The position numbers and the translations under genes are program-made. From Elusimicrobiota bacterium (lineage in GTDB: Bacteria > Elusimicrobiota > Elusimicrobia > Elusimicrobiales > UBA9959), in NCBI GenBank assembly GCA_016209085.1, contig JACQWV010000036.1, positions 1-34,097 of the forward strand: a stretch of 34,097 nt of DNA, read 5' to 3'. Positions 4,582 through 28,318 of the stretch are shown piece by piece. Below the pieces are notes generated by a model. It did not search any database. It was not told the DNA's origin and worked only from the letters and a program-made list of their open reading frames with translations. Numbering within the stretch: position 1 is the first letter of the stretch; each line of letters opens with the position of its first letter.

Positions 4582-4606
4582 GGGTCGGATAAATCCGACC
4601 CCTACA
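4582..4606. repeat. TGTAGGGG palindromic repeat, half copy C
   Basis: Only the right hairpin is present: the 20-bp palindrome GGGTCGGATAAATCCGACCC followed by CTACA. It is identical to the right half of copy A and lies immediately upstream of the ureidopropionase start, overlapping the 3' end region of the ferritin-like gene (which stops at 4602). Confidence 0.8.
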
Positions 4607-5006
4607 ATTGTTTGTATTCAAGTATCAACCGATCTTTTTTGTCTGCCAGTTTTTCAAAAGTTCTCTTAACTTCTTTAAGGTTCACTGATTTCGCTGCATC
4701 ACGAAGAAAATCCCGCTGTTTTTCTATAATGGCAATAGAAAATTTCCAGTCTTCTACGTTGGAAGTCTCCATCAGATAGGATTTCTCGTCTATGCTCGCA
4801 CAGGGTTCCATTACCATTTCGGTGACATTCTCTTTTAATACGGTATTCAGCAGCCGGATGTTTTTTTCAGCCTCGTCCTTGAATCTGCATAAAGCGTCGT
4901 GCTCTTGTCCGCTAAGTTTCTCCATTGAGCGGCTGAAAAAATTCAGGCCGGAATTTTCCAGCCTGATGGCGAAATCCAGAAACGCGCTGAAAGTGTTGAG
5001 ACTCAT
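4602..5006 (-). CDS. Ferritin/rubrerythrin-like helical protein
   Basis: The 134-residue product starts at the ATG at 5006 behind AAGGGGG, reading MSLNTFSAFLDFAIRLENSG. It is all alpha-helical in character, with a pattern (FLDFAIRLENSG, FFSRSME, then FKDEAEKNIRLLN and FEKLADKKDRLILEY) resembling two-helix-pair rubrerythrin/ferritin-like domains. The usual second ExxH metal pair appears degenerate (ADKKDRLI), so di-iron binding is doubtful. The frame stays open upstream to 5240 only because it runs through a repeat element; the ribosome site and family-like start argue for 5006. It may be first in the catabolic transcript. Role unknown. Confidence 0.65.
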   Translation of the reverse strand: MSLNTFSAFLDFAIRLENSGLNFFSRSMEKLSGQEHDALCRFKDEAEKNIRLLNTVLKENVTEMVMEPCASIDEKSYLMETSNVEDWKFSIAIIEKQRDFLRDAAKSVNLKEVKRTFEKLADKKDRLILEYKQL

Positions 5007-5017
5007 ACCGCCCCCCT

Positions 5018-5292
5018 TAGGGACCGTAAAGAAATTATTGACATATTTGGCTGAGCTGACCCCGCACATGATGCGGGGCAAGGAGCGAGAAGCGAGCATA
5101 TCGTTGATATGTAAGCGACGAGCGACGCAGTTGCAGCCAAAAAGCAGCCAGCCCCTTCGGGGGAAGCCGATATGCGGCCATCTGCTGCGTTGCTCCTCAC
5201 TCACATACCACAGGGTATTCTCATTCGTCGCGCCTTGCATCTGACCTCATCTCGGCTTCCCAAATGTATCACTAATTTCTTTACGGTCCCTA
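5018..5292. mobile_element. 275-bp MITE-like element, copy 1 (structured core, TAGGGACC ends)
   Basis: The ends are inverted repeats starting TAGGGACCGTAAAGAAATTA, perfect for 20 bp and then imperfect to about 33 bp. The interior (about 5050-5240) is highly palindromic. Its reverse complement matches the element at 27614-27894 closely over about 200 bp (for example GATGCAAGGCGCGACGAATG, GAGGAGCAACGCAGCAGA and GGCTGCAACTGCGTCG). No transposase is present, so it would need one in trans. It fills the gap between the GAF-PAS gene and the ferritin-like gene. Confidence 0.82.
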
Positions 5293-12526: not shown

Positions 12527-14200
12527 ATGGCAAAAAAAGTCGTAGTAATCGGCTCCGGACCCGGCGGTTATCCGGCCGCGCTTAAACTCAAAGCATTGGG
12601 AGCCGAAGTCTGCATAATAGAAAAGCTGGATTTCGGCGGAACCTGTCTTAACAGGGGCTGCATACCTTCCAAATCATTTCTTGATGCTGCCGGCAGAATC
12701 CGCTCGTCTGAAATCCTTAAAACCCTGCTTAAAGACGGTAAATTCTTTGATTTCAATCCCGATATGCTTTCATGGGATAAGATAAAAGAACGGAAAAACT
12801 CCGCGATAAAAAAAATAAAAAATTCCCTTGAAAAACTCTTTGAATTGAACAAGATAGAAATAATAAAAGGCGCGGCGTCTTTCGCGTCAAAAAACGAAAT
12901 AGCGATACGGACGGAACGGGAGGAAATAAGGAAAAATTTTGATTTTGCGGTGATAGCAGCCGGGACGGTTCCTTTCTTCCCCCCGCCTTTTATAGATTAT
13001 AAAAACGAACTGCTTGATTCCGACAGAATTTTTGACGTTCCCGGATGCCCGGCTTCAATCATCATCATAGGGGCCGGAGCCATAGGCCTTGAATTCGCAT
13101 GTTTCTTCAATGCCCTGGGAGCGAAAACGGACGTTGTCGAAATACTTCCGGAAATTCTTCCCGGAGAAGACGAAACAGTTGCAAGAACCGCCAGGAATTC
13201 TTTTGAAAAAAGAGGCATAAAATTTCATCTCAGCCGCAAAACCGTAAAAATAACGATATCAGAAAATGAAAAAACTCTGGAACTTGACAACGGCTTGAAA
13301 ATAACGGCCGCAGAAATCCTTGTCGGAGCCGGAAGAGCGGCCGAACTCTCGGAATTAGGACTTGAAAATGCCGGCCTGAAATGGGACAGGAAAGGAATAA
13401 GAGTAAACGAATATACGCGGACTGAAATTGAAAACATTTATGCCGTAGGCGACGTAAACGGCATTTCAATGCTCGCTCATTCAGCGACAAGGCAGGGCGA
13501 AATAGCGGCTGAAAACATTTTCGGAGCGCAAAAAAGATTTGATTTGAATCTCGTCCCTAAATGCGTTTATACGCGGCCTGAAATAGCGAGCATAGGATTA
13601 AACAGGAAGCAGGCCGAGGCGCAGGGTTTGAATCCTAAAACCTCAAGAGCGTATTTCCAGTCTTCAGGCTTCGCCATAACCCATGACGAAACGGACGGCT
13701 TCGTGCAGATTGTCTATCATGCGGATAACGACGCTATTTTAGGCGCGCAGATTGCAGGCGGCCCTGCGACCGAACTGATTCACCTCTTCTCTATCCCGGT
13801 TCAATTAAAACTGAAAAGAAAAGACCTGCTTGAAGCCATATACGCACATCCGACAATGGCCGAAACCCTCCTGGGCAGGAGAAATATTTTAAAATGCTAT
13901 AATAAAACCATGACCGACCGGGAAATTATTATGGAAGTAAAAAACATAATCCGACGTCATCTACCTGAAAAAGAATTTAAAATATTTCTTTTTGGTTCTA
14001 TCGCAAAATCCAAAGCCTCCAAAAATTCTGATATTGATATAGGAATTTTAGGCCGAAAAAAAATTAACTTATTGCTTCTGCACAGAATAAAAGAAGAGAT
14101 AAAAGGCATTCCGACTTTGAAAAAAGTAGATGTGGTGGAATTAAGCAACTCTGCTTGTAACTTCACAAAAAAAGTCTTAAAACATGCTAAAAAAATATAA
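12527..14200 (+). CDS. lpd: Dihydrolipoamide dehydrogenase (glycine cleavage L protein) fused to an MNT nucleotidyltransferase
   Basis: The ATG at 12527 follows GGGAGGA. Residues 1-461 are Lpd, which reoxidises the dihydrolipoyl arm of GcvH. It has FAD motif GSGPGGY, redox pair Cys40/Cys45 (GGTCLNRGCIPSK), NAD motif GAGAIGLEF, second FAD motif YAVGDVNG and catalytic His in YAHPTMAETLL. Without a stop the frame continues from Met462 into a minimal nucleotidyltransferase with FLFGSIAKSKASKNSDIDIG, the GSx...SDxD signature. Lpd ends slightly shorter than usual. An extended -10 promoter sits inside the junction just before Met462, so the MNT may also be made alone. The HEPN partner overlaps the 3' end by 17 bp. 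The fusion looks like an insertion that removed the lpd stop codon. Confidence 0.9.
   Translation: MAKKVVVIGSGPGGYPAALKLKALGAEVCIIEKLDFGGTCLNRGCIPSKSFLDAAGRIRSSEILKTLLKDGKFFDFNPDMLSWDKIKERKNSAIKKIKNSLEKLFELNKIEIIKGAASFASKNEIAIRTEREEIRKNFDFAVIAAGTVPFFPPPFIDYKNELLDSDRIFDVPGCPASIIIIGAGAIGLEFACFFNALGAKTDVVEILPEILPGEDETVARTARNSFEKRGIKFHLSRKTVKITISENEKTLELDNGLKITAAEILVGAGRAAELSELGLENAGLKWDRKGIRVNEYTRTEIENIYAVGDVNGISMLAHSATRQGEIAAENIFGAQKRFDLNLVPKCVYTRPEIASIGLNRKQAEAQGLNPKTSRAYFQSSGFAITHDETDGFVQIVYHADNDAILGAQIAGGPATELIHLFSIPVQLKLKRKDLLEAIYAHPTMAETLLGRRNILKCYNKTMTDREIIMEVKNIIRRHLPEKEFKIFLFGSIAKSKASKNSDIDIGILGRKKINLLLLHRIKEEIKGIPTLKKVDVVELSNSACNFTKKVLKHAKKI
13895..13903 (+). promoter_or_regulatory. 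Internal extended -10 promoter for the MNT module
   Basis: TGCTATAAT, an extended -10 (TGn-TATAAT), ends 6 bp before the ATG at 13910. That ATG begins the nucleotidyltransferase part (MTDREIIMEVKNI). No -35 is needed for this promoter class and none is seen. A leaderless MNT transcript from inside the lpd 3' end would result. Confidence 0.55.
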
Positions 14201-14570
14201 TTCAGATATTTTTAATTCATTTATCAAATCAATTAAACGATTTAATGAAATATTAAACGCTCCCCAGACACTGGCTAACAGGGATTCTGCCATAAAACGG
14301 TTTGAACTGACTTTTGAATTAGCCTGGAAAAGCATAAAAGAATATTTAGACTATAAAGGTATCATATCCCGCTCACCAAGGGACTGTTTTGAGCAGGCTT
14401 TCAGCATTGGAATCATTCAGGATGATCCAGCGTGGATTAAAATGATAGAAGACAGAAATTTATCTGTCCATACATATAATGAAAAATTGGCAATGGATAT
14501 TTATCGCAGACTCGGCAAATATCTTAATCTTTTCAAAAGTCTTTCAAAATCCCTTCGTGCAAAAAAATAA
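14184..14570 (+). CDS. HI0074-type nucleotidyltransferase substrate-binding / HEPN protein
   Basis: The 128-residue all-helical protein has FELTFELAWKSIKEYLDYKG and the HEPN signature EDRNLSVHTYNE (Arg91-Asn92 ... His96). It overlaps the upstream MNT frame by 17 bp, the usual arrangement of MNT/HEPN pairs. Characterised pairs of this type act as toxin-antitoxin systems, where the MNT chemically modifies and silences the HEPN RNase. The catalytic Rx4H pair is present, so it may be an active toxin. The unusual feature is that its MNT partner is fused to Lpd. Confidence 0.88.
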   Translation: MLKKYNSDIFNSFIKSIKRFNEILNAPQTLANRDSAIKRFELTFELAWKSIKEYLDYKGIISRSPRDCFEQAFSIGIIQDDPAWIKMIEDRNLSVHTYNEKLAMDIYRRLGKYLNLFKSLSKSLRAKK

Positions 14571-14659
14571 CCGGCACCGCATATCTACTCTATTTCATCT
14601 AATCAGAAATATTCCACCCGACAATGTCTGAAACAATATATGAAGCCCTGAATAAATAA

Positions 14660-14722
14660 TTTTGCCTATAAGCAAAAAAAATTATGTAAAAATTTGCTTT
14701 CAAGCAAAATTTTATATATATT
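14660..14722 (+). promoter_or_regulatory. Promoter with two TTTGC-N6-GCAAA dyads upstream of the DUF4143 ATPase
   Basis: TTGCTT (14694-14699), a 17-bp spacer and TATATT (14717-14722) end 6 bp before the ATG at 14729, with no ribosome site, so the transcript is probably leaderless. Two dyads share the pattern TTTGC-N6-GCAAA: 14661-14676 and 14693-14708. Their centres are 32 bp apart, about three helical turns, and the second overlaps the -35. They look like operator sites. Confidence 0.6.
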
Positions 14723-14728
14723 ATAAAC

Positions 14729-15901
14729 ATGCTAAAAAACCGCTATCTCGTATCCTCTGTAGTTGAAGATTTAACAAGTAAAATGGTTTTTGTCAGCGGC
14801 CCCAGACAGGTTGGAAAGACAACACTCGCCAAATCGCTTATTGGAATAAAATTCAGAGAAACAGCGTACTTTAACTGGGATAAGCAGCATGATAGAAAAC
14901 AAATAATGTCTGCCCAATGGCCGGGTTCTGCAGAGTTGATTATTCTTGATGAAGTGCACAAGTTTAAAGGATGGAAGCGTTTTATCAAGGGTGAATACGA
15001 TGTTTATAAAGATAAATATAAATTTTTAATCACCGGAAGTGCTCGTTTGGATATTTACCGCAAAGGCGGAGATTCTCTGCAAGGTAGATATCATTATTAC
15101 CGACTGCATCCATTCACACTCACAGAATTATCAAATGGAAAATCTAAACCTGAACCATTTAAAGAGATTATTTTTGAAATGAAAAATAATAATCGGAATT
15201 TAGAAATTTTAGAAAAATTTGGCGGATTCCCAGAGCCCCTTTTCTCACAAAATGACCGTACTTTAAGGCGATGGCACAATGAACGTAATGAGCGTTTATT
15301 CCGCGAAGATATCCAGGACATAGAGATAATTTATGAATTAGGCAAAATGAAGATATTAAGTGATATGTTGTCCTCCAGAGCAGGAAATCTTCTCTCCATT
15401 AATAATCTCAGAGAAGATCTTGAAGTAAGTCACCGTGCTGTCTCACACTGGCTAAACATTCTTGAGTCATTTTATTACCATTTCCGAATATATCCATTCT
15501 CAAAAACTTTCTTTAGATCTTTAAAGAAGGAACCAAAGTTATATCTGTGGGATTGGTCAGAAGTGCAAGATGATGGTCACCGTTTTGAAAACATGGTTGC
15601 CTCTCATCTCCTGAAACTCGTTCACTGGCTCTATGACCGGGAGGGTTACAAGGCAAATCTTCATTTCCTGCGTGATACTTCTAAACGCGAAGTGGATTTT
15701 TTAGTTACTGTTGATGAAAAACCATGGTTTGCTGTAGAAACAAAAATTCAGGATGAAAATCCTGCACCATCTCTGAAATATTTTCAAAAAAAATTAAAAA
15801 TTCCTTTCGTTTACCAAGTAATTAAAAAAGACGGCATTGATAAAATTGCTGACAGAATCAGGATTGTATCAGCAAACAAATTCCTTTCCGCTTTAATATA
15901 A
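14729..15901 (+). CDS. AAA-family ATPase with DUF4143 C-terminal domain
   Basis: The 390-residue protein has Walker A VSGPRQVGKTT, Walker B LIILDEVHK, sensor LITGSARLDIY and family element LQGRYHYYRLHPFTLTEL. The C-terminal DUF4143 region includes EDLEVSHRAVSHWLNILE (winged-helix-like) and HFLRDTSKREVDFLV ... FAVETKIQ, a PD-(D/E)XK-like nuclease pattern (D/E..E-x-K). Such ATPases are abundant in mobile and conflict regions of anaerobes and archaea, but their function is unknown. Start ATG at 14729 is fixed by the promoter. Confidence 0.88.
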   Translation: MLKNRYLVSSVVEDLTSKMVFVSGPRQVGKTTLAKSLIGIKFRETAYFNWDKQHDRKQIMSAQWPGSAELIILDEVHKFKGWKRFIKGEYDVYKDKYKFLITGSARLDIYRKGGDSLQGRYHYYRLHPFTLTELSNGKSKPEPFKEIIFEMKNNNRNLEILEKFGGFPEPLFSQNDRTLRRWHNERNERLFREDIQDIEIIYELGKMKILSDMLSSRAGNLLSINNLREDLEVSHRAVSHWLNILESFYYHFRIYPFSKTFFRSLKKEPKLYLWDWSEVQDDGHRFENMVASHLLKLVHWLYDREGYKANLHFLRDTSKREVDFLVTVDEKPWFAVETKIQDENPAPSLKYFQKKLKIPFVYQVIKKDGIDKIADRIRIVSANKFLSALI

Positions 15902-16014
15902 GCATTCCCTTTTTTTCTTGCCTAAACCCTGTTGCAAGATAATAGAAATGTCATAGTCGTAGTTTTTTTTGCTTCTTTTTTCTTTTTGTTAATTCCGTGG
16001 ATACTGTTTATATC

Positions 16015-16146
16015 TGTGATTCAGACACTAAAAGACTCTTACCCCACCACCTGCTTGCCCGAAAACGGGCATTCTGCCCGAAGCAGGTGGTGGGGTAAAA
16101 CCCATTTCTTCATGGCAGAGCAAGCTCTGCAGCTGTCTGAATCACA
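16015..16146. repeat. 132-bp nested palindromic element with TGTGATTCAGACA ends
   Basis: Outer perfect inverted repeats TGTGATTCAGACA (16015-16027) and TGTCTGAATCACA (16134-16146) enclose a strong hairpin: TTACCCCACCACCTGCTT (16039-16056) pairs exactly with 16081-16098. Inside that is GCCCG-AAAA-CGGGC. A separate hairpin GCAGAGC-AA-GCTCTGC lies at 16115-16130. It fills most of the gap between the DUF4143 gene and the MNT fragment. The frame open across it (15932-16189) looks spurious. Confidence 0.8.
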
Positions 16147-16207
16147 AAAAAAATTTGTTAAAATTAAAATATACTTGACGACATTTTAAAAACATTCTTT
16201 AATTGGT

Positions 16208-16360
16208 ATGAATATTAATTTAAGCAGGCAAAAAATCCGAAAATATTTTAAATTTATCCGCGATGTTACCGCAGTCTATGTTTTTGGCTCGCATGCAGAC
16301 GGAAAAGCGAATCGTAAATTTTTTAAAAAAACCGCGATGAACGACACTTTGAAATTTTAA
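16208..16360 (+). pseudogene. Truncated MNT nucleotidyltransferase fragment
   Basis: A 50-codon frame starts MNINLSRQKIRKYFKFIR and continues VTAVYVFGSHADGKANRKF. This is the N-terminal start and GSxxxGxA part of an MNT nucleotidyltransferase, which then breaks off into KKTAMNDTLKF and a stop, before the SDxD metal-binding residues. It is a remnant of a second MNT gene, ending 6 bp before the helicase ATG. Confidence 0.72.
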
Positions 16361-16366
16361 ACGACA

Positions 16367-17953
16367 ATGCATGGAAATTCTATTGAAATAAATAACGAAT
16401 TTAAAAAAGCCCTTGAATTAGCTGAAAATACCTCTAAACATATCTTCATCACAGGTAAAGCCGGCACTGGTAAGTCCACTTTTTTAGAATATTTCCGCGA
16501 TAACACTTCTAAGAAAGTGGTAGTTTTGGCTCCTACCGGCGTAGCTGCCTTGAATGTAAAAGGTGAGACTATCCATTCATTTTTTAAATTTAAGCCTGAT
16601 ATTACCCTTGAGAAAATAAAAAAACATAAAGGCAAATCCGCAAACATTTACAAGAAGATAGATGCTATTGTCATTGATGAGATATCTATGGTGCGGGCAG
16701 ATTTGCTGGATTGTATTGATAAATGCCTGCGATTAAATGCTAAAACCTCTGGCATGGCATTTGGCGGTGTACAAATGATTTTTGTCGGCGACCTTTACCA
16801 ACTTCCGCCTGTTGTAGTTGGCAAAGAAAAAGAAATTTTTAGATTTTATTACCAAAGTCCATATTTTTTTGACGCCCGGATATTTGATGGTTTGCCAATG
16901 GAATTTGTGGAATTTGAAAAAAACTACCGCCAAAAAGATGAGCAGTTTATTAACCTGTTAAATAAGATCCGTAACAACTCAATAAGCGATAGAGAACTAT
17001 CTATAATCAACACAAGACTCAATGCGCCAGTCCCCGAGAATAAAAATTTATCATACACAGTTATTCTAACAACTACCAATCAAACAGCAATGCGGATAAA
17101 TGAGGCGCATTTGGAAAAATTAAGTGCCAGAATGTATACATATAAAGCTTTGGTAATGGGCAGTTTTGAAAAGAGCTCTTTTCCTACGGATGATTTACTT
17201 AAGGTAAAAGTCGGGGCACAGGTGATGCTTCTTAATAACGATGCCCAGGGCAGATGGGTTAATGGGACAATGGCTAAAATTGTAGATATCAAAAGCAACA
17301 AAGAAAGAGACATTATTTTCGTAAAGTTAGCCGGAGGCGAAATTGAAGAGGTTCTTCCTTATAAATGGGAAATTTTCCATTTCCGTATCAATGAAGAGAC
17401 AGGAAATCTTCAGACTGAAGTTGCAGGTAATTTTATACAATATCCCTTAAAACTTGCATGGGCAGTAACCATACACAAAAGCCAGGGAAAAACTTTTGAC
17501 CGTGTCATAATTGATTTGGAACGACCAACCTTTGCTTCTGGGCAGATGTATGTGGCTTTGAGCCGGTGCCGCTCGCTGGACGGAATAGTATTAAAACAAC
17601 CTGTAAAGAAAAGCCATATCCTGATGGATTGGCGCGTAGTGCGATTCTTAACCAAATATCAATATGAATTATCAGAAAAAAGCCTCCCGCTCAAAGAAAA
17701 GATTAACATCATCACACAAGCAATCAAAAACAGGGATTTACTGGAAATAATTTATTTAAAATCAAATGATGAAAAATCCAAGCGGGTTATTAAACCGCAG
17801 AATGTTGGCGAAAAGATGTATCTGGATAAGACATTTATTGGCGTAGAAGCATTCTGCCTTAAAAAGAAAGATAATAGAGTATTTAGAGTAGATAGAATTT
17901 TAGAAATGAAAGTTTCTCAAAGTAAAACCTCATTAAACCACATGGTTTACTGA
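16367..17953 (+). CDS. PIF1/RecD-like DNA helicase with C-terminal WYL-like domain
   Basis: The 528-residue superfamily 1 helicase has FITGKAGTGKST (Walker A), APTGVAALNVKGETIHSFF (Ia), IVIDEISMVRADLL (II), FVGDLYQLPPV (III), EKNYRQKDEQF, and the PIF1 signature WAVTIHKSQGKTFDRVIID with MYVALSRC (V/VI). Residues about 440-515 (AIKNRDLLEIIYLKSNDEK ... VEAFCLKKKDNRVFRVDRIL) match a WYL-type ligand-sensing domain. The last codons (KTSLNHMVY) and stop come from a partial MITE, so the natural C-terminus may have been replaced. It sits 34 bp upstream of an ERCC4 nuclease, suggesting a DNA-processing pair. Confidence 0.88.
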   Translation: MHGNSIEINNEFKKALELAENTSKHIFITGKAGTGKSTFLEYFRDNTSKKVVVLAPTGVAALNVKGETIHSFFKFKPDITLEKIKKHKGKSANIYKKIDAIVIDEISMVRADLLDCIDKCLRLNAKTSGMAFGGVQMIFVGDLYQLPPVVVGKEKEIFRFYYQSPYFFDARIFDGLPMEFVEFEKNYRQKDEQFINLLNKIRNNSISDRELSIINTRLNAPVPENKNLSYTVILTTTNQTAMRINEAHLEKLSARMYTYKALVMGSFEKSSFPTDDLLKVKVGAQVMLLNNDAQGRWVNGTMAKIVDIKSNKERDIIFVKLAGGEIEEVLPYKWEIFHFRINEETGNLQTEVAGNFIQYPLKLAWAVTIHKSQGKTFDRVIIDLERPTFASGQMYVALSRCRSLDGIVLKQPVKKSHILMDWRVVRFLTKYQYELSEKSLPLKEKINIITQAIKNRDLLEIIYLKSNDEKSKRVIKPQNVGEKMYLDKTFIGVEAFCLKKKDNRVFRVDRILEMKVSQSKTSLNHMVY

Positions 17954-17977
17954 GGTTTTACCCAGGCAAAATTTGGC
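17922..17977. mobile_element. GTAA...TTAC MITE, partial copy 1 (left end only)
   Basis: This copy has the left terminal palindrome (GTAAAACCTCATTAAACC ... GGTTTACTGAGGTTTTAC, one mismatch) and the inner CCCAGGCAAAATTTGG, then stops matching. It is nearly identical to the left end of the copy at 21236. It supplies the last codons and stop of the helicase gene and abuts the start of the nuclease gene. Confidence 0.85.
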
Positions 17978-17987
17978 TTGCATAAAA

Positions 17988-18695
17988 ATGATGGACAACG
18001 AACAATCAAAACACAATAACCTTTCTATCAAAATAGACTTCCGTGAAAAAGATTCCAATGTTGGGAAAATTTTGGCAGAACTTTACGGATTCCAGATAAT
18101 AGAGGATAATCTAAAAATTGGTGATTACCTTATTGGTAATGATGTGATTGTGGAGAGAAAAACAGCGATTGATTTTTCGCAATCAATTATTGATGGCAGG
18201 CTTTTCCGCCAGGCAAAAATAATGCAGCAGGTTTTCAATTTGCCATTATTTATTATTGAAGGAAAAAATGTTTTTGATACTTCCGTAAATATCCATCCAA
18301 ATGCTGTTAAAGGCGCCTTGGTGAGCCTAACTTTAGCATGGAGAATACCTGTGCTTTTTTCCACTGATTATACAGATACTGCTTTGCTGCTCTGGCTAAT
18401 TGCAAGTCAGAACTATGACTTTCACGCTGACATATCTGCTCGTCCCGGAAGAAGACCGAAGAGATTGCTTGGCCGGCAGCTTTATATTTTACAAGGTTTA
18501 CCCGGAGTTGGACCAAAATTGGCTGAAGCCCTGCTTAACCATTTTGGCAGCATTGCAAAGGTAATCACTGCTTCCGACAAAGAACTTACAGACATCCATG
18601 GATTGGGCAGAATAAAGGCACAGAAAATCAAAACGATAGTGAACTCGTTTGCGTATAAAACTCCTGGTAACAATTCAGTGAACAGTGTTCACTGA
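17988..18695 (+). CDS. XPF/ERCC4-type structure-specific nuclease with C-terminal helix-hairpin-helix
   Basis: The 235-residue protein has the XPF family active site: IKIDFREKDS (Asp17), IGDYLIGNDVIVERKTAIDF (Gly45-Asp46, Glu56-Arg57-Lys58, Asp62), i.e. GDx(n)ERKx3D. The C-terminal tandem HhH is clear (LQGLPGVGPKLAEALLNHFG and IHGLGRIKAQKI). XPF nucleases cut branched or flapped DNA and are mainly archaeal and eukaryotic; short forms occur in some bacteria. No ribosome site precedes the ATG. A MITE inserted after codon 227 replaced the last residues: removing it restores an ending TPENS in place of TPGNNSVNSVH. Partner is probably the upstream PIF1-WYL helicase. Confidence 0.9.
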   Translation: MMDNEQSKHNNLSIKIDFREKDSNVGKILAELYGFQIIEDNLKIGDYLIGNDVIVERKTAIDFSQSIIDGRLFRQAKIMQQVFNLPLFIIEGKNVFDTSVNIHPNAVKGALVSLTLAWRIPVLFSTDYTDTALLLWLIASQNYDFHADISARPGRRPKRLLGRQLYILQGLPGVGPKLAEALLNHFGSIAKVITASDKELTDIHGLGRIKAQKIKTIVNSFAYKTPGNNSVNSVH

Positions 18696-18819
18696 ATTGT
18701 TACCAGGGCAAAATTTGGTAATTTTTAGTTTTTTAAAAGAATTTTTAATTAAAACACCTAAAACAGACCAAATTTTGCCTAGGTAAATACTCACTGACAG
18801 AAGTTCAGTGAGTATTTAC
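18667..18819. mobile_element. GTAA...TTAC MITE, copy 2, with 8-bp target duplication
   Basis: The 153-bp element is flanked by perfect direct repeats AACTCCTG at 18659-18666 and 18820-18827. Each end is itself a palindrome (left GTAACAATTCAGTGAAC ... GTTCACTGAATTGTTAC; right GTAAATACTCACTGA ... TCAGTGAGTATTTAC). Inside is a second inverted pair GCAAAATTTGG / CCAAATTTTGC. GTAA termini with 8-bp duplications are known for the IS66 family, so mobilisation by an IS66-type transposase is inferred. It lies in the 3' end of the ERCC4 nuclease gene. Confidence 0.9.
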
Positions 18820-18925
18820 AACTCCTGAAAATTCTTAATACTTCCCTTCAAACAAATCAACTTGTTAATTCGTAAGATTTATTGTAACATTTCAATTATA
18901 TAAAAAAAACCTGTAAATTTAAAAT

Positions 18926-20464
18926 ATGGAAACAGAAGAAAAAATAGAGACAATACCTGTAACAATTGAAAAAAGTCATATAGTAACAATAGGTGAAAGG
19001 CTTTATAGCGAAGCTGTTGAATTGATACGAGAATTGGTCAACAACGCTTATGACGCTGACGCAACTGAAGTTTATGTGACACTCTCTACTGAAAAAATAG
19101 TTATATCAGACAATGGCTCTGGCATGGATAAAGAGGGATTGAAACAGTATTTTACCATAGGTTCAACTTTTAAAAAACATCATCGCAAAACACCGAAATT
19201 TGGGAGGGAAAGAATAGGCGAATTTGGAATAGGAAAATTTTCATCTCTTTCAGCCTGCCAGAAATTTGAGTTGCATACCAGAAGGGCGAATTTTGCCGCA
19301 ACTGTTATATTTGACAAATCAGAATGGAATAAATCCGAAGAACACTGGCATCTACCGATGAAAATTGAAACGGCTGCCCCAAATGTCCCTGATGGAACGC
19401 GAATAATCTTATACGAGCTGAATAAAGTGTTTGAGCCTGAAATAGTGGAAAGAAGACTTCAGGAAAGCGTCCCATTAAAAGCCCCTCAATTCTCGGTATT
19501 TTTAAATGGCAAAAAAATCCATCCACGATTTCTTGCCGGGAAAAGAATTCCGTTTATGGAAGGAACACCGTTTGGCATAGTGCACGGAGAAATAATAATC
19601 GCGCCACAAAGTTTGGCTGACCCTCAGGATTGTGGAATAGAATGCAAGATAAGGCAGGTAACAATCAAGAGGGAGTTTTTTGGCCTTGAAAATTTAATTG
19701 GAAGCGATATGTATAGAATATCAGGGGAAGTTCACGCTGACTTTTTGCAGGTTTCCTCTGACCGCTCAAATTTTATCATGGATTTACCCGAATATTTAGC
19801 ATTTCTGGAAATAATGAAACGGATATGCGAAAGAATAACTAAAGAGATGTTGGCATTAAAAGATGAAAAGGAAAATAGAAGAGTCGGCAGATCTCTTAAG
19901 GAAATGATAAACAAAATACAAGATGCTTTGTTAAAAAACATAGAATGGTGCCCGCCCGGATTTATCCCAGCTGAAGAACACAAGAAGAAAACAGGCGCTG
20001 CGCAGGAATTAGCAGAAAAGAAAACAGAATCTCAAATTCAACGCCAAACTCAAAAGAAAAAAAGAATAAGAAGACCAAAATTAAAACAATTGTCTCCAAG
20101 CGCATTTATAAAAAAGCTAAAAATTGGAACCAAAGGTCTGGCTCTTGTTATGGACCATTTTGGGCCATCAGCGCCTGAATCTTTCACAGAAAGTGAGATA
20201 ATTTACATTAATAGGGATCACCCTTTGTTTATCAGAGAAGCAAATAATAGAGAAAGACACATTATGCATGTTGCAAGGCTTATAACCCAGGAAATAGCTC
20301 TTATGAGCAATCCCAAAAATCCAAGACAGGCATTTGAGAGGCAATCAAAACTTTTGAAAGATTCTTTTTCTGATAAATCCGCTCATAGTGAAAATACTAC
20401 CCAAGAGACTAACGCCGAAGGACAGAAAAATCAAAATATAGACCAACAAGAAATGAAAATATGA
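18926..20464 (+). CDS. GHKL (Hsp90/MutL/MORC-like) ATPase
   Basis: The 512-residue protein has the Bergerat ATP-binding fold in its first 200 residues: ELIRELVNNAYDADATEV (Glu36, Asn40), SDNGSGMD, and RIGEFGIGKFSSLSA. A transducer-like middle region follows, then a charged linker (about 345-390, KKKTGAAQELAEKKTESQIQ and KKKRIRRPK). The C-terminal domain has EIIYINRDHPLFI and HVARLITQEIALM, a segment seen in MORC/Hsp90-like bacterial proteins of defence and repair loci. It heads a unit with a small protein (4-bp ATGA overlap) and a nucleotidyltransferase. No ribosome site precedes the ATG; TAAATT 6 bp upstream may be a -10. Function unknown. Confidence 0.85.
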   Translation: METEEKIETIPVTIEKSHIVTIGERLYSEAVELIRELVNNAYDADATEVYVTLSTEKIVISDNGSGMDKEGLKQYFTIGSTFKKHHRKTPKFGRERIGEFGIGKFSSLSACQKFELHTRRANFAATVIFDKSEWNKSEEHWHLPMKIETAAPNVPDGTRIILYELNKVFEPEIVERRLQESVPLKAPQFSVFLNGKKIHPRFLAGKRIPFMEGTPFGIVHGEIIIAPQSLADPQDCGIECKIRQVTIKREFFGLENLIGSDMYRISGEVHADFLQVSSDRSNFIMDLPEYLAFLEIMKRICERITKEMLALKDEKENRRVGRSLKEMINKIQDALLKNIEWCPPGFIPAEEHKKKTGAAQELAEKKTESQIQRQTQKKKRIRRPKLKQLSPSAFIKKLKIGTKGLALVMDHFGPSAPESFTESEIIYINRDHPLFIREANNRERHIMHVARLITQEIALMSNPKNPRQAFERQSKLLKDSFSDKSAHSENTTQETNAEGQKNQNIDQQEMKI

Positions 20465-20685
20465 GTCACATCATAAAATTTCAATCCTTTGAAGAGATGA
20501 ATAATTATGTATTCAAAGGTTTTTATAAAAAAAAATTCGTTCCAGAAAAATTTGAGGAGTTTTTAGAGGGATTTTCAGGGCATATTAAAAACCCATATAA
20601 ACCCGGGGTTTATAAATTTAAAACCTTTGAAGAAGCAAGAAAATTTGAGATTAAATTAAAAATAAAGAATGGTAACTTTAAATAA
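20461..20685 (+). CDS. Small hypothetical protein of the GHKL-nucleotidyltransferase unit
   Basis: The 74-residue lysine- and phenylalanine-rich protein starts MSHIIKFQSFEEMNNYVFKG and contains two similar segments: FQSFEEMNNYVF and FKTFEEARKFEI. Its ATG overlaps the stop of the GHKL gene (ATGA) and its end overlaps the next start by 17 bp, so all three are translationally coupled. I do not recognise the family. Position and coupling suggest an adaptor between the ATPase and the nucleotidyltransferase. Confidence 0.7.
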   Translation: MSHIIKFQSFEEMNNYVFKGFYKKKFVPEKFEEFLEGFSGHIKNPYKPGVYKFKTFEEARKFEIKLKIKNGNFK

Positions 20686-21151
20686 ACTTGCTAAGGTTTG
20701 CAGCAGCCTTAATAAATATGCCGTAGAATACATCATTATTGGAGGATGCGCGATTTTTATCCATGGCTACGAGAGAATGACACAGGATATAGATGTGCTC
20801 ATAAATGCAAACGATAAAAATATTGAAAAATTTAAAATGGCTTTAGGTGAATTTCTACCAGAAGCATGCAAAGAACTCACAAACAATGATATAAAAGAAA
20901 ATGCAGTCATCAGAATGGTAAGCGAAGACCTGATTATTGACGTGATACATAGGATTGGAGATTTTGACTATAAAACAATAAAAAACGATATTATCATTGA
21001 AGAAATATATGGCGTAAAAATACTTGTTGCAGGACTGAATAGCATGTTAAAGTTAAAACAGGGCGTAAGGGAAACTGACAAAAAGGATTTTCTGTTTTTG
21101 CTCGGCAAGAAAAAATATTTAGATGAACAAAAAAACGACAAGAGCGCCTGA
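20669..21151 (+). CDS. Nucleotidyltransferase-fold protein (DUF6036 / AbiEii-like)
   Basis: The 160-residue protein has YIIIGGCAIFIHGYERMTQD followed by IDVLI, the GG ... DxD arrangement of the nucleotidyltransferase fold (Gly25-Gly26, Asp40, Asp42), then DLIIDVIHRIGDFDY with a possible third carboxylate. The C-terminus (GLNSMLKLKQGVRETDKKD) matches small NTases of the AbiEii/DUF6036 type, many of which are toxins or defence proteins. It is the third gene of the GHKL unit, with its start inside the previous gene. Substrate unknown. Confidence 0.78.
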   Translation: MVTLNKLAKVCSSLNKYAVEYIIIGGCAIFIHGYERMTQDIDVLINANDKNIEKFKMALGEFLPEACKELTNNDIKENAVIRMVSEDLIIDVIHRIGDFDYKTIKNDIIIEEIYGVKILVAGLNSMLKLKQGVRETDKKDFLFLLGKKKYLDEQKNDKSA

Positions 21152-21235
21152 CAGGCATCTGTCTATAAGCGGAATATCTTTTGACCTGCTGAAAAACCAT
21201 TCTCAAATTTCATCTCCGCACAAACCCAAATAAAC

Positions 21236-21390
21236 GTAAAACCTCAGTAAACCACATGGTTTACTGAGGTTTTACCCAGGCAAAATTTGGCGATTTTTAG
21301 TTCTTTAAAAGAATTTTTTATAAAAGAACCTAAAATAGACCAAATTTTGCTTAGGTAAATATTCACTGACGGGGTTCAGTGAATATTTAC
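21236..21390. mobile_element. GTAA...TTAC MITE, copy 3, with 8-bp target duplication
   Basis: The 155-bp element is flanked by perfect AAATAAAC at 21228-21235 and 21391-21398. The left end is an 18-bp-arm palindrome (GTAAAACCTCAGTAAACC ... GGTTTACTGAGGTTTTAC); the right end is GTAAATATTCACTGA ... TCAGTGAATATTTAC. The interior, with GCAAAATTTGG / CCAAATTTTGC, matches copy 2 closely. It marks the right boundary of the accessory island, directly before the gcvT promoter. Confidence 0.92.
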
Positions 21391-21398
21391 AAATAAAC

Positions 21399-21435: not shown

Positions 21436-22455
21436 ATGGATAACACTCAGACCTTGAAAAAAACCGCATTAAACGGGACATTGAAAAAACTGGGCGGAAA
21501 GATGGTTGATTTTTTCGGTTGGGAGTTGCCTATTCAGTTTGAGGGAATAATAAAAGAACATACAGCCGTAAGAAACTCAGCCGGTATTTTTGACGTTTCC
21601 CACATGGGTCAGATTTTCATAAGGGGCGCCAACGCCTTCAAGCTTCTTCAAAAGACCAATTCAAACGATTTGAAGAAAGCAATCATAGGAAAAGGGGTTT
21701 ATTCTCATCTTCTTAACGAAAAGGCCGGCGTGGTTGACGACGTGATAGCTATGAATCTGGACGTTCAAAACAAAAGCCCGGAATATTCAATGCTTGCGCT
21801 TCAGGGTCCCAAAGCGCCCGACATGATGAAAGTCTTTGCTCCTGAAGCCGAAAAACTGCCGCGATTCGGAATAATTGAAAAAAAATTATTTAATGCCGAT
21901 TCTTTTATAAACAGAACTGGATATACGGGCGAGGACGGGTTTGAAATAACCGCTCCCCACGGCGCGATAAATGCAATCTGGGAGAATTTGATGGAAATCG
22001 CCAAAGACATACCTCTAACCCCGTGCGGGCTCGGAGCGAGGGACACCTTAAGACTTGAAGCCGGTTATCTCCTGTACGGACAGGACATTGACGACAACCA
22101 CACCACGCTTGAAGCGAATTACGGCTGGGCTGTATGTTTTGACAAAGGCGAATTTATCGGAAGAAACGCTCTTTTAAAGCAAAAGCAAAACGGCATTGAA
22201 AGGAGACTTACCGGCATAGCTCTCGCGGGACCGGGCGTGCCGAGGCGCGGTTGCAAGGTTTTTAAGGACGGCAGGCAGATAGGCGAGCTTGCGAGCGCGA
22301 CTTATTCCCCCACTCTTAAACGAGGCATAGGGACCGGATATCTGTCTGAACCGAAATTAAAACCAGGCGAGGAACTGGAAGTTGAAATCCACTCAAAAAT
22401 GCTTAAAGCAGCAGTGCATCAGGTGCCGTTTTACAAAGGAACAGCGTTTAAATAA
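21436..22455 (+). CDS. gcvT: Aminomethyltransferase (glycine cleavage T protein) with internal deletion
   Basis: The 339-residue protein transfers the methylene unit of aminomethylated GcvH to tetrahydrofolate. It has MVDFFGWELPIQF, GIFDVSHMGQ, VVDDVI (Asp101-Asp102, catalytic Asp), SMLALQGPKAP, NRTGYTGEDGFEI, CGLGARDTLRLEAGY and FIGRNALL. Between VVDDVIAMNL and SPEYSMLALQGP the family normally has a strand-helix segment with a VVNA.N motif lining the folate pocket; about 28 residues of it are missing in frame here (junction near 21757-21765). Activity is therefore doubtful unless the deletion is an assembly error. A GTG three codons upstream is an alternative start. Confidence 0.9.
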   Translation: MDNTQTLKKTALNGTLKKLGGKMVDFFGWELPIQFEGIIKEHTAVRNSAGIFDVSHMGQIFIRGANAFKLLQKTNSNDLKKAIIGKGVYSHLLNEKAGVVDDVIAMNLDVQNKSPEYSMLALQGPKAPDMMKVFAPEAEKLPRFGIIEKKLFNADSFINRTGYTGEDGFEITAPHGAINAIWENLMEIAKDIPLTPCGLGARDTLRLEAGYLLYGQDIDDNHTTLEANYGWAVCFDKGEFIGRNALLKQKQNGIERRLTGIALAGPGVPRRGCKVFKDGRQIGELASATYSPTLKRGIGTGYLSEPKLKPGEELEVEIHSKMLKAAVHQVPFYKGTAFK

Positions 22456-27625: not shown

Positions 27626-27894
27626 ATAAATAATGTCCTACTTTGGAGGCTCAGATTTGGATTGGATGCAAGGCGCGACGAATGAGCATAGCGTCTGCTA
27701 TGTGAATGAGGAGCAACGCAGCAGACGGCCAAATATGAGCCTCCCCTTTCCCGCAGGGGAAAGGGGCTGGCCGCTTTTCGGCTGCAACTGCGTCGTTCAT
27801 CGCTTACATATCAAAAGATATGCTCGCTCCTTACTCCTTGTCTCGCTCAAAAATCGGCTCAGCCAAAGCGGACATTATTTATGTTTGCCTCAGT
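27614..27894. mobile_element. 281-bp MITE-like element, copy 2 (same core, ACTGAGGC ends)
   Basis: Perfect 25-bp inverted ends start ACTGAGGCAAACATAAATAA (27614-27638 and 27870-27894). The core matches the reverse complement of 5018-5292 over about 200 bp, yet the ends are unrelated to the TAGGGACC ends of that copy. Internal sequence is palindromic (for example TATGTGAATGAGGAGCAACG against TGCGTCGTTCATCGCTTACA). The right end contributes the start codon of the gene at 27881. Confidence 0.85.
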
Positions 27895-28318
27895 AAACCG
27901 CATATTGATTATAAAAATTTTATCCGGTTTTGTTTTCATCGCAGCCATAGCAGGAATAGACGTCGTACTGAGAGCAAGAAACGCGCACATGAAAGCCGAA
28001 CGGTACATGAGCTGGCATCTCAATCCGACTCTGAAAGTTGAATCTATTGAGGCGGAATATGCGGCAAAAATAAAACGCCTTGAAAAACAGCTGGAAAAAG
28101 ACTCCGTCTCCAGACGGGAATTTGAAACTGCCGTGTCTGAACTCCATTCTGAAAAAGCATTCAAGATGAAAGACAGCGCCATAAAAAACGCCTATTACTG
28201 GTACCAGACGGCTGCGGAATGTTTTCCGCCTCCTCTTTCCAAATGGAGCAGGGATGCAAAAGAAAAACTGCCGCTTGCAGAAAAACTGTGGAAAGAGGAG
28301 TCAGACTCCCTGAAATGA
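27881..28318 (+). CDS. Small membrane-anchored coiled-coil protein
   Basis: The 145-residue protein has an N-terminal TM segment (about 8-28, ILIIKILSGFVFIAAIAGID) followed by a charged coiled coil (about 50-85, KVESIEAEYAAKIKRLEKQL). I do not recognise the family. The ATG and first four codons (MFAS) lie in the right inverted repeat of the MITE, so the start has been supplied or replaced by the element; the next in-frame ATG is after the TM helix. The stop overlaps the next gene (ATGA), indicating coupling to the HELAH protein. Confidence 0.68.
   Translation: MFASVNRILIIKILSGFVFIAAIAGIDVVLRARNAHMKAERYMSWHLNPTLKVESIEAEYAAKIKRLEKQLEKDSVSRREFETAVSELHSEKAFKMKDSAIKNAYYWYQTAAECFPPPLSKWSRDAKEKLPLAEKLWKEESDSLK

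Follow-up and report, generated by a model that had tools for sequence, protein, structure and literature searches.

A probably composite accessory island, with an MNT–HEPN cassette in the 3' end of lpd, separates lpd from gcvT in an Elusimicrobiota bacterium

Islands that depend on tyrosine recombinases use the 3' ends of genes as attachment sites. Toxin–antitoxin (TA) loci have been described as mobile two-gene modules (PMC2701414, PMC11586414), and the WYL domain of the Pif1 helicase of Thermotoga elfii binds single-stranded DNA (PMC9964779). When circular DNA with partial homology integrated in E. coli, genes were left partly duplicated, and gain and loss of DNA are coupled in homology-facilitated illegitimate recombination (PMC3240628). 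Here we analysed a contig of 34,097 bp from an Elusimicrobiota bacterium (JACQWV010000036.1; the whole contig is referred to as the window), in which lpd, the gene for dihydrolipoyl dehydrogenase, and gcvT are separated by 7.56 kb. The source genome is a draft of 2.35 Mb in 140 contigs with a completeness of 98%. We propose that the lpd–gcvT interval is probably a composite accessory island that arose through several separate events at an operon junction permissive of insertions. We also show that a pair of genes for a minimal nucleotidyltransferase (MNT) and a HEPN protein forms a cassette that lies inside lpd itself.

In relatives, the C-terminus of Lpd reads HPTM[AS]Exx.EA.xK and is followed by a stop codon. 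In the window, Lpd follows this pattern up to HPTMAET, after which the open frame that starts at position 12527 continues into the MNT gene. The sequence HPTMSETIYEALNK, followed by a stop, shared 12 of 14 residues with the Lpd tail of the best-matching relative, and the next best 14-mer in the six frames of the whole window agreed at 7 of 14. The lpd segment was present in two direct copies, at 13847–13866 and 14615–14634, with 17 of 20 positions identical. These data indicate that the native terminus of lpd survives about 750 bp downstream and that lpd houses the MNT–HEPN pair as a cassette. A preliminary description of this region had stated that the left edge of the island removed the lpd stop; since the native tail and its stop are intact at 14615–14659, 3' of the pair, the stop was not deleted and the pair is lodged inside the gene.

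The two adjacent genes of the cassette retain their catalytic motifs as read in the sequence, GSx10DxD in the nucleotidyltransferase (NTase) and RNLSVH in the HEPN protein. Both proteins scored under the cut-off of 60 bits for the type VII models (MntA 45.8 bits, HepT 22.3 bits), and the HI0074 subfamily model was passed (110.2 bits; cut-off 55.8). The upstream part of the gene encodes the whole dimerisation domain of Lpd with its HPT..E motif, and because of this the Lpd enzyme is probably functional. Directly 5' of the mntA ATG, the extended −10-like sequence TGCTATAAT is a candidate that could drive a leaderless mntA transcript. It is quite improbable that the 557-aa lpd::mntA frame is expressed as a functional fusion, that is, as an Lpd with a C-terminal AMPylating antitoxin domain. 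If it were, the HEPN toxin would be released whenever lpd was lost or silenced, which would tie the cassette to the gene it invaded; the frame is a case in which the fusion of an antitoxin to a housekeeping enzyme could be tested. More generally, MNT–HEPN pairs may be small cassettes that spread without an integrase and settle in the last codons of core genes. In the 2.5 Mb of loci examined, no match to the MNT or HEPN protein was found besides the window's own; a single weak MNT match came from another phylum.

The whole interval differs in composition from its surroundings. The guanine-plus-cytosine (GC) content was 0.35 in the lpd–gcvT interval versus 0.46 in lpd and gcvT, and in windowed profiles it was 0.32–0.39 in the island and 0.43–0.50 in the flanks. 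GC at third codon positions was 0.26–0.36 in the island genes and 0.44–0.52 in the surrounding genes, and the tetranucleotide distance over 13.5–21.7 kb lay 3–6 standard deviations off the flanks. The shift is limited to 13.87–21.4 kb and is well past chance; the island is foreign-looking. Both lpd and gcvT had native composition along their whole length in these profiles, which ruled out that either gene is a chimera by composition. The earlier claim of about 7.5 kb of AT-richer DNA between lpd and gcvT was thus borne out, and so it was by the GC and tetranucleotide profiles that had been proposed as its check. The gene list given with it was also recovered by Pfam searches: NTase/Polbeta, NTase_sub_bind (HEPN), AAA_14 with DUF4143, PIF1 with WYL, ERCC4 with HHH, HATPase_c_3, a 74-aa protein and a DUF6036-like NTase. 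We found no integrase or recombinase among the annotated open reading frames (ORFs) of the island and no RNA element or tRNA as an integration target, and scans for promoters and terminators gave site counts no higher than in shuffled sequence. No complete known anti-phage defence system was found in the island, in which PADLOC reported nothing beyond two candidates of one gene each, PDC-S01 and PDC-S09, and partial matches to domains.

The junction was then compared with that of relatives. Among the 41 nearest genomes, lpd was found in 40 and gcvT in all, and a family-wide search gave 38 family members, besides the window's own, with both genes on one contig. The lpd–gcvT distance in these 38 relatives ranged from 0.14 to 10.7 kb and was at most 1.25 kb in 15 of them. 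In 35 of the 38, xth (Exo_endo_phos/exonuclease III; one copy partial) lies 3' of lpd, mostly at a spacing of 18–25 bp, and the variable slot is the gap between xth and gcvT, which extends from 82 bp to 9.8 kb. Genes in the slot include a GreA/GreB-like factor (many species of one genus) and GTP cyclohydrolase-like, carbamoyltransferase-like, DJ-1, TPR and glycosidase-like genes, some of these names being our reading of the sequences, without a domain-search entry. We recognised no conflict-type gene in the relatives' slot, and no gene of the island was present in the lpd–gcvT interval of any of the 38. Both the length and the content of the slot vary among relatives, and the genes in it are ordinary ones, so that the lpd–gcvT interval is a recurrently expanded junction and not a defence hotspot.

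A search for xth gave no match in the window's genome, and this blank is meaningful because the same query was positive in 27 of the 41 genomes; several further family members also lack xth. An xth remnant within the block was ruled out, as no convincing match was obtained. Synteny with relatives is intact around the island. The island is an insertion relative to the relatives, and xth has been lost here. The expectation that relatives would have lpd and gcvT side by side held in that their intervals are free of island genes, but the usual order is lpd–xth–gcvT.

Copies of a miniature inverted-repeat transposable element (MITE) record later events in the island. The genome holds eight copies with a full core and a few fragments; the element is about 155 bp long and has a hairpin at each end, with an inner inverted repeat between them. 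It has the characters of a MITE, being short, non-coding and multi-copy, with inverted ends and exact target duplication. Five of the six copies with both hairpins are flanked by exact 8-bp duplications (AAATAAAC, AACTCCTG, GCTATCGC, GATGAAAC and CTTGCTTT). The copy at 18.66 kb sits in the last codons of the XPF gene, and joining the sequence across its duplication restores an end of ...YKTPENS and a stop. The copy at the right edge of the island is a separate late insertion into DNA that was already 5' of gcvT, and since it entered pre-existing DNA it is no guide to how the island arrived. The view that a MITE forms the right edge therefore stands as far as its exact 8-bp duplication is concerned, but not as a boundary, for the element has no partner at the left edge: the copies or fragments in the island are only at 17.92, 18.66 and 21.24 kb, with none near 13.9 kb. 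A composite transposon bounded by MITE or insertion sequence (IS) copies was ruled out for the same reason. The MITE ends are IS66-like, as we take them to be, and the IS66 transposase domain (PF03050) was absent from the window's genome in a search whose controls were positive, which ruled out IS66 as the mobiliser; no transposase that mobilises this MITE family was identified.

The terminal hairpins of the MITE vary among copies (those of the window and L083–L090), and palindromy is kept by changes on both arms, as in ACCTCAG/CTGAGGT versus ACATCAG/CTGATGT. Solitary palindromes of 36–43 bp, of the type GTAACTATTCACTGAA...TTCAGTGAATAGTTAC and related to the MITE ends, also occur in the window's genome, at L105 (G000:C137:22311-22356), L106 (G000:C49:192-232) and L097 (G000:C60:2756-2825), the last of which also retains the start of the core, GCAAAATTTGG.

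A second junction probably lies within the island, at a short stretch that resembles the 5' end of gcvT (Table 1). Its frame reads FKKTAMNDTLK, and the corresponding part of gcvT reads LKKTALNGTLK. Against a profile of the gcvT starts of relatives the stretch scored 16.4, gcvT itself 25.6 and the next match in the window 8.4, and 2 of 300 simulated islands held a match to the gcvT start as good as this one. If the remnant is real, the segment 14615–16354 (lpd tail, DUF4143 gene, MNT fragment and gcvT start) would be an older lpd–gcvT interval with one later addition on each side, the MNT–HEPN cassette and a 5.1-kb block that runs from PIF1 to the NTase.

Other observations concern the DUF4143 gene of this segment. 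Two short operator-like inverted repeats, TTTTGCCTATAAGCAAAA and AAATTTGCTTTCAAGCAAAATTT, lie at 14660–14713, directly 5' of the gene, and were not seen 5' of two other DUF4143 genes that we checked. In another family of the class, a C-terminal DUF4143 fragment (L332:9524-9832, genome G047) is 64% identical to the island's and lies about 1 kb from a PIF1-WYL gene.

Table 1. Features of the lpd–gcvT interval and its borders (positions in the window)
Feature	Position	Strand	Basis
lpd (dihydrolipoyl dehydrogenase), body up to the duplicated HPTMAET segment	12527..13866	+	TIGR01350, 431 bits; native composition
Upstream copy of the lpd 3'-end repeat, CATCCGACAATGGCCGAAAC	13847..13866	+	direct repeat, 17/20 to 14615-14634
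MNT–HEPN cassette, 748 bp, inside lpd 3' end	13867..14614	+	bounded by duplicated lpd segment
mntA-like nucleotidyltransferase (antitoxin type), in frame with lpd	13910..14200	+	Polbeta/NTP_transf_2; GSx10DxD
HI0074-type HEPN (toxin type), 17-bp overlap with mntA	14184..14570	+	NTase_sub_bind, 108 bits; RNLSVH = RX4H
Displaced native lpd C-terminus, HPTMSETIYEALNK, and stop	14615..14659	+	12/14 to relatives' lpd tail
AAA_14-DUF4143 ATPase	14729..15901	+	Pfam; PADLOC PDC-S01 only
Nested inverted repeats, arms 16008-16027/16134-16153 and 16030-16056/16081-16107	16008..16153		repeat search
Truncated MNT gene, cut behind GSHADGKAN, without catalytic DxD	16207..16321	+	sequence
gcvT 5'-end-like remnant, FKKTAMNDTLK	16322..16354	+	direct repeat, 26/33 nt to 21454-21486
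PIF1-WYL helicase, last codons read into MITE fragment	16367..17953	+	PIF1 and WYL
MITE fragment, left hairpin and start of core	17922..17977	+	97% to right-edge MITE
Short XPF/Hef-type nuclease (ERCC4 and HHH); listed ORF opens at 17973; stop from MITE	17991..18695	+	Hef profile, 206.8 bits
Full MITE, 8-bp duplication AACTCCTG at both ends	18667..18819	+	repeat and copy comparison
GHKL (MORC/Hsp90-like) ATPase	18926..20464	+	HATPase_c_3
74-aa small protein with GVYKFKTFEEA, overlaps GHKL and NTase genes	20461..20685	+	motif beside NTase loci
Minimal nucleotidyltransferase (DUF6036/DUF2204-like)	20669..21151	+	Pfam; 53/341 phylum genomes
Full MITE at right edge, AAATAAAC duplication 21228-21235 / 21391-21398	21236..21390	+	repeat and copy comparison
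gcvT, intact, first gene of gcvT-gcvH-gcvPA-gcvPB-lplA	21439..22455	+	GCV_T; relatives; native composition

The cargo genes differ in how widely they occur. Of the 341 phylum genomes searched, 188 carry PIF1-WYL (E ≤ 1e-40), and the window's genome has only one copy; its relatives are mostly 52–62% identical over the full length, and in several of them the gene lies within about 4–15 kb of lpd, on the other side of lpd. PIF1-WYL is a common gene of the phylum and not a conflict gene, so that not all of the inserted genes are of conflict type. The XPF gene was found in 6 of the 341 genomes, and the nearest relatives, 53–54% identical, are from a distant family of the phylum. The XPF relatives do not adjoin PIF1, and a conserved pair of the two was ruled out.

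The GHKL gene was found in 4 of the 341 genomes. Its 53 near full-length relatives (among L127–L187), with about 40–57% identity, occur sporadically in many phyla, and no conserved neighbour was found across the 53 loci. Members of this family are stand-alone proteins of about 480–500 aa with strongly conserved C-terminal NRDHPL/QE motifs. The AlphaFold model, with a mean predicted local distance difference test (pLDDT) score of 79, had MORC3 and TRAP1 as its best matches in the PDB, and in this model the protein resembles a MORC/Hsp90-like ATPase. A search for viral carriers gave only weak matches to the ATPase domain. In one family member (G002:C126; L125:3101-3541) the middle of the GHKL gene is deleted and the N-terminal start is joined to the C-terminal part; this gene is a decaying relative of the island's.

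Beside the NTase gene, the small ORF was found to have counterparts that adjoin or overlap the NTase in 14 of 29 NTase loci of the phylum (L269–L297), as against none of 11,225 control ORFs. Their motif is of the type [KR]G(V/I)xxx(K/N/H)(T/S)x(E)EA, also G[VI][YW]xFKTxEEA, and the window version is PGVYKFKTFEEA; the small protein has no Pfam entry. On this evidence, the small protein and the NTase are a candidate TA-like two-gene module. A single system of GHKL, small protein and NTase was ruled out, since in the two full-length relatives of the phylum the GHKL gene has other neighbours, an HTH gene and an AbiEii-like NTase in one and a coiled-coil-like ORF in the other. XPF, GHKL and the small protein–NTase pair each occur apart elsewhere, and hence they form no fixed defence system.

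Taken together, stepwise assembly is supported by the cassette in lpd, the MITEs in older DNA and the cargo that occurs apart elsewhere. We propose that the ancestral order in the family was asmA-like–lpd–xth–gcvT–gcvH–gcvPA–gcvPB, with the xth–gcvT gap open to gains, and that xth was lost in the source lineage, with AT-rich DNA in its place. The MNT–HEPN cassette sits in the last codons of lpd, between the two copies of about 20 bp, with the native tail pushed downstream. The PIF1-to-NTase block may have been joined at the 5' end of gcvT, leaving the 33-bp gcvT-like remnant, whereas the MITEs did insert into older island DNA, the PIF1 and XPF frames now ending inside MITE sequence. Because no integrase is present, we infer that entry could have been by additive or homology-assisted recombination through partial lpd or gcvT homology on the incoming DNA. 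The cargo may have persisted because it does no harm at the ends of genes and through the addiction that the MNT–HEPN pair, and perhaps the small protein–NTase pair, would cause. Several points weigh against this reconstruction. The gcvT remnant is short and might have arisen by chance (roughly 1%). The two lpd repeats have 3 mismatches in 20 positions, which points to an old duplication or to origin from a different allele. In the PIF1-WYL tree, a clade with family members is not rejected (approximately unbiased test, p = 0.275), so vertical descent and transfer both stand, and the claim that the gene was proven to be horizontally acquired was dropped for this reason. The set searched held no second genome of the source genus, and the order of events is not datable.

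The direct repeat of the lpd 3' end on both sides of the cassette and the displaced tail are also the usual marks of a site-specific integrative element, which could have used the lpd 3' end as its attachment site; after loss of the integrase, decay would have left only the MNT–HEPN cassette. We regard this origin as unlikely: the annotated island ORFs include no integrase, the cassette has only 748 bp, the new lpd end reads into mntA with no stop restored, and no integrase-bearing element was recognised at the lpd 3' end in the 38 relatives. A single acquisition, in place of xth, of a preformed defence island or of a piece of a plasmid would fit the uniformly low GC of the block and the presence of several conflict-type genes together. 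The chance of this is very small, for the lpd tail lies inside the block, the MITEs have target duplications of their own, the genes differ in distribution, no known defence system is complete and PIF1-WYL is common in the phylum. As the block contains three copies or fragments of a repeated MITE family and the genome is in 140 contigs, the contig might have been misjoined through MITE repeats during assembly or binning; such an artefact is extremely improbable when two of the MITEs lie between matching, exact target duplications, the internal lpd tail matches the lpd of the family and the flanking synteny is intact. Of the earlier view of a stepwise defence or selfish island, then, the stepwise insertion is retained and the coherent defence or selfish island is not supported, as there is no complete system and the slot genes of relatives are ordinary.

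Elsewhere in the window, two ORFs, 4602–5240 (−) and 27633–27896 (+), have the common peptide MQGATNE..YV.EEQRSR.P...GCNCV..RLHI, which is probably a translated intergenic repeat.

The locus gives a view at the base-pair level of how an accessory island can grow at an operon junction without an integrase, with a fossil left of the displaced gene end. Tails of this kind fall below the length that gene callers detect, and they can help to reconstruct the order in which an island was assembled. Apart from the cassette in lpd, the interval is an ordinary variable interval of a known kind.

Compared with the HEPN–MNT type VII TA modules (PMC2701414, PMC11586414), the pair described here has in common two overlapping genes, the NTase motif GSx10DxD and the HEPN motif RX4H; unlike them, it is of the HI0073/HI0074 type, scores below the MntA and HepT cut-offs and is lodged inside lpd, in frame with it. 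The helicase shares the PIF1 core and the C-terminal WYL domain with bacterial Pif1-WYL helicases (PMC9964779), whereas its C-terminus ends inside a MITE and its location is unlike that of its relatives. With the Hef/XPF 3'-flap nucleases, the XPF protein shares an ERCC4 nuclease domain that carries GDx9ERKx3D, and an HHH domain at the C-terminus, but it is without the Hef helicase domain and is rare in the phylum. The MITEs resemble IS-derived MITEs in their 5'-GTAA ends, inverted repeats, 8-bp target duplication and lack of coding capacity, although no IS66 transposase domain was detected in the window's genome. As in islands at the 3' ends of protein genes, the end of the target gene is duplicated and displaced; here, on the other hand, there is no integrase, the cassette is 748 bp, the repeats are 85% identical and the gene end is not restored. 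Homology-facilitated illegitimate recombination or additive integration (PMC3240628) would yield a partial duplication of the anchor gene and a foreign gain together with the loss of a resident gene; no donor was found for the interval described here, for which additive integration is the route that we infer.

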